Shown here: positions 20,901 through 21,788 of the stretch, one piece after another
How the letters are laid out: the number at the start of each line of letters is the position of its first letter
How positions within the stretch are numbered: the first letter of the stretch is position 1
Position numbers and translations under genes: made by a program
From: Malus domestica
Lineage: Eukaryota; Streptophyta; Magnoliopsida; Rosales; Rosaceae
Direction: 5' to 3'
NCBI RefSeq assembly: GCF_042453785.1
Contig: NC_091676.1
Span: forward strand, 193,501-257,500
DNA: 64,000 nt
Notes under the pieces: generated by a model
Database searches by the model: none
Told to the model about the DNA's origin: nothing
What the model saw: the letters and a program-made list of their open reading frames with translations, nothing else

Positions 20901-21788
20901 GGACAATGTATGATAACCATGCATCATGTACTATCCCAAGCTACCCACTTAAACAACATACCTGTAAAAGTGCAGCAATAGTACCAAAAGAATTCCACAA
21001 TACAGGAGCCAAATCTTGAAATAATTCTCTCGTCTAGAAGTAAAAACAGGAAGAAACACAAGTACCTGGATGAGTGCAGCAATAGTACCAAAAGAATTCC
21101 ACACGAAAGGAGCCAAATCTTGAAATAATTCCTTGTTCTAAAAAATGAAACCAAAGGCACACAGTTTATATAGAAGCATATCAGTGTTGTAATATACATT
21201 GCATAACCACCTAAAGGAAAAGTCACAGGCACAAATAATTAACTATAAAATCTGGTGTAAAAGAAACCTACGCAAGCTTCCCTGTGATCATAAACATATA
21301 ACATGTATTTGTTGAAAACATATAGTGTATCTATCAAGATGCTCCAAGTAGTTTATGGGTCCTATGTAATAAAGAAAAGGGTAAAATTTTGAATGCCCAC
21401 TTATACTGATGCAACAGTCAGGCTTCCGAATCCAGTTTCTCACTACAGGAAACAAATGCACTTTTCTTCCTCTTGTTAGTTACAAAAATGAGACAAGTAA
21501 ATAAGGAAATGACATAAATATTAGTCAATTACATCCAAAATTACAAGCCTCAGACTCGGTGCTTCACTCTTGATATAGGAAGTGACAATGAAAACTTGCA
21601 AAAGTTACCTTTGAAAGTTCAAGAAGCGTGTTTTCTCGAAGATCAGGATTACTCAAGTCAAGCACCAAGTGCTCTGCTGATGCCATTTTACGATCTTTGT
21701 TTGCTTGAGCTCCAGTAACGCTTGGTGCTGAAACGCTTGGACCTCCGAATGGAACATTTAATGAAAGTGACTGGGGCCGGTTTGCCAT
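17972..21788 (-). CDS. CNOT9: CCR4-NOT complex subunit 9 (RCD1/RQCD1-like)
   Basis: This is the armadillo-repeat scaffold subunit of the CCR4-NOT deadenylase, which recruits mRNA-decay and translational repressors. Coding exons: 21788..21609, 21033..20962 (or the alternative 21137..21066), 20688..20599, 20168..20126, 19275..19169, 18973..18878, 18695..18505, 18375..18306, 18082..17972. With one version of exon 2 the sum is 960 nt, 319 aa, near the 316 aa I recall for Arabidopsis. The variable N-terminus MANRPQSLSLNVPFGGPS leads into the conserved core: LVLDLSNPDLRENTLLELSK, then the 24-aa alternative exon, IPLYLYPFLNTSS, FEYLRLTSLGVIGALVKV, TEIIPLCLRTMELGSELSKT, TFIVQKILLDD, LKHIIRCYLRLSDNPR and RRWLQQLLQNVGV. 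The start is the first ATG after the 5' UTR acceptor; the leader intron is about 21802-22725. All junctions are GT-AG. It lies on the same strand as the myosin gene, with about 4 kb between them. Confidence 0.95.
20962..21137 (-). other. Pair of alternative (probably mutually exclusive) exons in CNOT9
   Basis: Copy 1 (21137..21066) and copy 2 (21033..20962) are each exactly 72 nt. Both start and end at phase 0, and both have AG before and GT after. They encode NKELFQDLAP-FV-WNSFGT and TRELFQDLAP-VL-WNSFGT, followed by IAALIQ or IAALLQ. The proteins differ at five of 24 positions and the DNA at 10 of 72. The stretch between them is 32 nt and begins GTACTT and ends TTCTAG, too short for a plant intron. 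Splicing both into one mRNA in series is therefore unlikely, and each can substitute for the other without changing frame. Copy 2 is nearer the family consensus I recall. Confidence 0.85.

Follow-up and report, generated by a model that had tools for sequence, protein, structure and literature searches.

Introduction

Conserved either/or pairs of homologous exons commonly serve to diversify proteins in animals, and exons 2 and 3 of alpha-tropomyosin are a mutually exclusive homologous pair that arose by tandem exon duplication. To our knowledge, few conserved either/or exon pairs have been described in plants. In Arabidopsis, FLM/MAF1 has either/or exons that swap a segment for protein interaction (PMC3266260, excerpts), and two forms of NOT9, a subunit of the CCR4-NOT complex, are provided by the genes NOT9A and NOT9B (PMC8009681, excerpts). 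According to the same excerpts of PMC8009681, the NOT9B mutant H70A V72A A77Y V85Y loses binding to both NOT1 and phytochrome A (phyA), and phyA competes with NOT1.

Here, a NOT9 gene of apple (Malus domestica) with two adjacent versions of exon 2, named 2a and 2b, is compared with these systems. The NOT9 pair is what is new; mutually exclusive homologous exons as a kind, and 2a proteins in public databases, are already known. The reading of the DNA that preceded this analysis, made from sequence only, knew of no description of such a pair in plants. A search of open papers on NOT9, CNOT9 or Rcd1-like genes with mutually exclusive exons, or on conserved plant pairs, likewise found no NOT9 pair described among the matches listed; in the accessible parts of PMC13072016 and PMC10253585 'Rcd1-like' and 'mutually exclusive' co-occur, but 'mutually exclusive' there just names one class of splicing events.

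Results

The apple NOT9 gene contains two homologous exons 2

The window, i.e. the whole stretch of 64,000 nucleotides analyzed (G000:C16:193501-257500, from chromosome 16 of a 651-Mb genome in 19 contigs), contains a complete CNOT9/RCD1 (NOT9) gene on its minus strand at 17972..21788. The gene runs from ATG to stop in nine exons and encodes 319 amino acids with either exon 2. Its features are as follows; exons are from the gene model, those of the pair also from exon comparison.

21609..21788, minus strand: exon 1, coding part, ending in phase 0
21066..21137, minus strand: exon 2a, the first copy, encoding NKELFQDLAPFVWNSFGTIAALIQ
21034..21065, minus strand: 32-nt spacer between 2a and 2b, with GT and AG ends
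20962..21033, minus strand: exon 2b, the second copy, encoding TRELFQDLAPVLWNSFGTIAALLQ; usual plant form KRELFQDLAPLLW..LLQ
21060..21164, minus strand: 105-nt run identical in the homeologs, comprising 2a, its acceptor tract and its donor (C16/C13 alignment)
21070..21074, minus strand: CTCAT inside 2a, a weak candidate branch point for the 2b acceptor (motif match)
20599..20688, minus strand: exon 3, phase-0 recipient of 2a or 2b
20126..20168, minus strand: exon 4
19169..19275, minus strand: exon 5
18878..18973, minus strand: exon 6, 96 nt, in frame
18505..18695, minus strand: exon 7
18306..18375, minus strand: exon 8
17972..18082, minus strand: exon 9, including the stop codon

The two copies lie next to each other at 21137-21066 and 21033-20962, each 72 nt long, in phase 0 and bordered by intact AG and GT sites, as the sequence-only reading had it. 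They are identical in 62 of 72 bases and differ at exon positions 2, 3, 5, 6, 31, 33, 34, 66, 67 and 69. Six codons are affected, one silently and five with a change of residue (N/T, K/R, F/V, V/L and I/L in 2a/2b, at residues 61, 62, 71, 72 and 83), so that the 24-residue segments differ at five positions, again as first described. By contrast, the identical central DNA blocks of 36 and 20 nt given in that reading proved to be 24 and 31 nt long. No stop interrupts the nine-exon frame with 2a or with 2b, and both isoforms cover positions 1-260 of the 260-position Pfam profile PF04078 (Rcd1; E 3.7e-123 and 1.1e-124), which bears out the prediction of two intact proteins.

Upstream of NOT9 and on the same strand, a single-exon frame of 197 amino acids at 24073-23480 belongs to the isoprenylcysteine carboxyl methyltransferase family (PF04140, E 4.8e-29).

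Related apple genes carry the pair or its remains

The homeolog on contig C13 (L006) also has both exons, correctly bordered and separated by a spacer of 32 nt; when this locus was searched, copy 1 found copy 2 with E 1.2e-24, and the search with copy 2 found copy 1 with E 4.9e-23. These mutual matches, together with the same arrangement, indicate that the pair is not due to chance. Exon 2a is identical between the chromosome-16 and C13 genes in 72 of 72 bases, and the other 960 coding bases hold 35 changes, two in 2b and 33 in the remaining exons. At the homeolog coding rate an exon of 72 nt would stay unchanged with a chance of 7 percent, a mild result by itself. In the 3.8-kb homeolog alignment the longest identical run, 105 nt from 21164 to 21060, consists of 2a with 27 nt on its acceptor side and 6 nt on its donor side; in the introns, 315 of the 2660 bases aligned are different. 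The spacer has changed at 5 of its 32 bases and not in length, with gaps in seven of the eight other introns, although a constant length is not significant alone, the absence of an indel from 32 nt being unremarkable.

Exon 2b of the C13 gene differs from that of chromosome 16 at two bases, both residue-changing, and has the ordinary KR..LL residues. The contrast of NK/TR, FV/VL and I/L noted at first holds for the chromosome-16 gene, but the T and V of its second copy are local oddities: among 149 2b segments of plant proteins (see below), T61 and V71 each occur in three, those of apple models P0001-P0003. In the chromosome-16 gene, therefore, 2b has drifted and 2a is unchanged, and a retrocopy on contig C14 (see below) already has the drifted 2b form. 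Taken together, these observations suggest that the two apple homeologs may have begun to split the isoforms between them.

Two more paralogs, on contigs C3 and C11 (L007 and L009), each retain a single intact exon 2, which is of the 2b kind, and a decayed exon copy upstream of it. Local alignment of the decayed copies with 2a gave scores of 40.5 and 42.5, the best shuffles reaching 29 and 30 (0 of 500 simple shuffles reached the score in either case). The C3 copy keeps the 2a-specific TTTCGT and scores 40.5 against 2a and 34.5 against 2b, whereas the C11 copy is slightly closer to 2b (45.5, versus 42.5 for 2a). The presence of these remains indicates that the duplication is older than the split of the paralogs, and that an unused 2a decays.

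An assembly error or a recent local duplication confined to this accession could be argued from one feature only, the high similarity of the copies (62/72). The same arrangement in the homeolog, the decayed remnants in the C3 and C11 paralogs and the occurrence of both peptides in other plant families make such an artefact a practically negligible prospect, and chance or artefact was rejected on the C13 exon matches and arrangement and on the decayed 2a of the paralogs. A recent duplication in apple only was likewise ruled out by the 2a proteins of other families and by the decayed 2a in C3 and C11.

Gene conversion was also considered as a cause of the DNA similarity of 2a and 2b, in which 1 of 19 same-residue codons differs, compared with 4 of 24 between the 2b exons of C13 and C3; the comparison is no more than suggestive, because exon 2 changes slowly everywhere, and this explanation was not retained. 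Two proteins of other sources, P0121 (KR..FV..I) and P0023 (NK..FV..L), have mixed signatures, perhaps from conversion between exons. At the start of 2b the C13 gene has a tandem acceptor, TAGAAG (L006:4815-4830), the second AG of which is gone on chromosome 16 (ACG); Citrus P0157 and Populus P0151 are one K short, which is what splicing at the second AG of 2b would produce.

Exon 2a is found across core eudicots

The distribution of the two versions was surveyed in 185 protein sequences from three protein searches, which are representatives of 90-percent clusters, so that isoforms are often hidden. An exon pattern matched 178 of them (7 unmatched) and yielded 149 segments of 2b type and 37 proteins carrying 2a, of which eight have both. 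The signatures are NK..FV..I for 2a and KR..LL..L for 2b. Sorting used residues 71-72, or 62 with 83, and the counts in those columns are thus partly fixed, N61 being independent: among the 37 2a segments N61 occurs in 34, K62 in 36, F71 in 34, V72 in 35 and I83 in 35, and among the 149 2b segments K61 occurs in 145, R62 in 147, L71 in 144, L72 in 147 and L83 in 149.

By name, 2a was found in 21 genera: Malus, Prunus, Rosa, Ziziphus, Quillaja, Carya, Morella, Populus, Salix, Mercurialis, Citrus, Pistacia, Acer, Hibiscus, Herrania, Reevesia, Corchorus, Vitis, Rhodiola, Apium and Davidia. In Carya and Morella, SL replaces FV. We take these genera to belong to rosids, Vitales, Saxifragales and asterids, a spread which places the origin of 2a at or before the core-eudicot radiation, presumably more than 100 million years ago. 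Outside core eudicots no 2a was found, and all 15 named proteins (from Nelumbo, Stephania, Magnolia, Tasmannia, Victoria, Iris, Dioscorea, Eragrostis, Phragmites and Vanilla) are of 2b type, clustering making this absence weak evidence. The same weak evidence of absence applies to Brassica, legumes and nightshades, with no 2a among the fetched cluster representatives, including five Brassica proteins (P0139, P0146-P0149).

If 2b alone were functional and 2a a dead or noise exon, rarely used, it would be understandable that 2b is closer than 2a to human CNOT9 (at residues 62, 72 and 83), that it is the sole form in the 15 proteins from outside core eudicots, and that 2a has decayed in two apple paralogs. 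Such an exon would have to coexist with 72 identical bases in homeologs whose introns differ at 315 of 2660, with an open frame, with diagnostic residues kept in 21 named genera, and with a chromosome-16 gene in which the drift is in 2b and not in 2a, all of which makes this reading very improbable. What was found instead, namely neighbouring homologous exons that agree in length and phase, intact splice sites, an intact protein from each isoform and conservation of both versions, is expected of a mutually exclusive pair. It is very probable that the pair arose by tandem duplication in a core-eudicot ancestor, has been kept since and is used in a mutually exclusive manner.

Annotated proteins and a retrocopy mostly include one exon 2

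In Citrus, a 2a protein (P0014) and a 2b protein (P0070), both on contigs of equal size, do not differ at any of the 265 residues that lie outside exon 2. Herrania, Mercurialis, Ziziphus, Apium and Populus alba have models labelled 'isoform X2' in which 2a is the only exon 2 (P0013, P0016, P0017, P0024 and P0031), and the apple model P0019, named isoform X1, also has 2a alone. P0023, which comes from a 1624-nt contig with an intronless frame and carries an NK..FV..L exon, is probably derived from RNA. In total, 29 of the 37 annotated 2a proteins have 2a alone and eight (P0001-P0008, four from apple and one each from Salix, Populus, Vitis and Morella) join both exons.

The eight joined proteins bear on the reading that both exons are included, giving a duplicated 24-residue helix segment, and that the spacer is spliced out like an ultra-short intron. 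Joining 2a to 2b keeps the frame, four of the joined proteins are from apples, and human minimal introns near 30 bp have been reported. However, the paper that mentions these reports doubts their spliceosomal nature, considers lariat removal of very short sequences unlikely and gives 56 bp as the validated minimum in a human study (PMC6310983, excerpts). The 29 proteins with 2a alone, isoform X1 or X2 models among them, and the single exon 2 of the C14 retrocopy also speak against joint inclusion, and a fold as conserved as this one would probably not tolerate a doubled helix. Removal of a 32-nt intron is implausible, and we regard joint inclusion as highly unlikely; to us, P0001-P0008 look like artefacts of gene prediction in which the short spacer was removed.

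The broken processed retrocopy on C14 (L008 4648-5192) runs from exon 1 straight into a single exon 2 and from there into exon 3. Its exon 2 is a hybrid, with the start of 2b, including the chromosome-16 changes, and the end of 2a. The source transcript was aberrant elsewhere too, with 43 nt of exon 5 missing and intron 6 retained, and these faults make the retrocopy a clean witness only to single inclusion. The hybrid is beyond linear splicing and could reflect template switching between isoform mRNAs, or conversion in the parent gene. As an observation apart, the retrocopy is a copy of the chromosome-16 gene with some bases as in C13 and not C16, so that its formation may date from soon after the genome duplication.

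Other outcomes differ in their effect on the frame. Retention of the spacer would cause a frameshift, with a stop at the start of exon 3, and skipping of both 2a and 2b would keep the frame with a loss of 24 residues.

Exon 6 and intron 6 stand out as well. The Malus domestica protein P0010 equals the 2a isoform of the chromosome-16 gene minus exon 6. The 32 residues of this exon (18973-18878) are missing, by an in-frame skip, from 20 of the 185 fetched NOT9 proteins and present in 108, and intron 6 (18877-18696), the one kept in the C14 retrocopy, is the least diverged intron between the homeologs (8 of 182 bases). This is possibly a second conserved splicing event. In sorghum, a skipped-exon event has been described in an Rcd1-like gene in the cold, the exon not being specified in the accessible part of the source (PMC13072016).

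A short spacer may suffice for exclusion

From the length of the spacer and from comparative and annotation data we infer that 2a and 2b are mutually exclusive, each NOT9 mRNA being predicted to run from exon 1 through 2a or 2b to exon 3. The spacer at 21065-21034 is, as first noted, of a length not expected for ordinary splicing, and at 32 nt it would be too short for the spliceosome, so that joining of 2a to 2b would be blocked sterically. The branch point of 2b would probably lie in 2a or at its edge, and commitment to one exon would then hide the other. Use of 2b would need binding within 2a, next to the 2a donor, which would produce exclusion without a further factor. In both homeologs the sole yUnAy motif 18-60 nt before the 2b acceptor is CTCAT (21074-21070), which comes from the Leu-Ile codons of 2a and places its A 38 nt upstream of 2b. 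Such a motif is expected by chance about once per some 40 bases by our estimate, and CTCAT is thus a candidate for the 2b branch point, to be taken as a lead.

Exclusion and choice might instead be set by RNA structure or a trans-acting factor, with the pair still exclusive. Several genes with exons of this type rely on competing RNA structures (PMC6071210, excerpts), and the 2a acceptor tract is unusually conserved. Yet a 32-nt spacer would be enough to account for exclusivity, and no U12-type donor was noticed on reading the NOT9 splice sites, which led us also to discard U12-type introns as the basis of exclusion. We consider control by structure or a further factor unlikely, though less so than the readings discussed above, and favor the short spacer with a branch point in or near 2a.

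The original proposal of a mutually exclusive pair is thus supported by the frames, the spacer, the homeolog, the occurrence in core eudicots, the Citrus proteins and the retrocopy; exclusivity itself is a deduction, and eight of the 37 2a proteins join both exons.

The variable residues adjoin partner-binding positions

The five residues that differ between the isoforms (61, 62, 71, 72 and 83) belong to helices in the first part of the armadillo domain. An AlphaFold2 model of the Herrania 2a isoform P0016, which stands in for the apple proteins (24 sequences, mean pLDDT 80.8), places exon 2 in helices 64-68 and 71-76 and the first part of helix 78-89. This model has the armadillo fold of solved CNOT9, its best PDB matches being CNOT9 structures (E 4.4e-22, TMt 0.75, rmsd 6.0; sequence E 2e-123).

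With Brassica P0139, P0146 and P0147 as stand-ins for the numbering of NOT9B (P0149 is offset by one), positions 70, 72 and 77 of the binding mutant fall within exon 2 and position 85 just after it, so that by this numbering the 2a/2b differences adjoin the mutated positions. No human interface mutant was found in a search of papers. Since, by this numbering, three of the four mutated residues are in exon 2, the two forms of NOT9 would most likely be held in CCR4-NOT with different strength or compete differently for other partners.

Discussion

The main mRNA-decay complex contains NOT9 as a subunit that hardly varies, and in it we find an old exon pair whose changed residues adjoin those binding the scaffold NOT1 and, in Arabidopsis NOT9B, light-activated phyA. 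The pair may have escaped notice because the Brassica relatives covered here are without 2a and protein databases cluster isoforms together. With it, one can ask in a simple way if splicing is a means by which plants tune CCR4-NOT. Tentatively, and with more doubt than confidence, it could be pictured as a core-eudicot splice switch more than 100 million years old, set in the helices that bind NOT1 and phytochrome and giving two kinds of CCR4-NOT from each gene. The last codons of 2a would then double as the branch point of 2b, with Leu-Ile kept by splicing and protein alike, and Arabidopsis, if it is without the exon, to which the five Brassica proteins point, may use two genes for the same task.

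Like the mutually exclusive exons of animals, the NOT9 exons are homologous in-frame neighbours, spaced so closely that a steric block would follow, and they swap a short segment. Unlike the animal pairs, they are in a plant gene, have a spacer of only 32 nt and a candidate branch point in the upstream exon, and are known here from sequence. The OGDH exons 4a and 4b (PMC7969005, excerpts) differ from them in not being in a plant gene, and the branch-point idea for NOT9 draws on one motif. With FLM/MAF1 the pair shares plant either/or exons that exchange a segment for protein interaction; however, the second FLM exon could be followed only as far as MAF1-3 and was considered to be of recent origin (PMC3266260, excerpts), whereas the NOT9 exons are near-equal and common to many core-eudicot families. 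As with NOT9A and NOT9B of Arabidopsis, there would be two NOT9 forms per plant, and the authors of that work suggest that differences at the NOT1/phyA site set the partners. In Arabidopsis the two forms come from separate genes (PMC8009681, excerpts); in apple, one gene would provide both by splicing.
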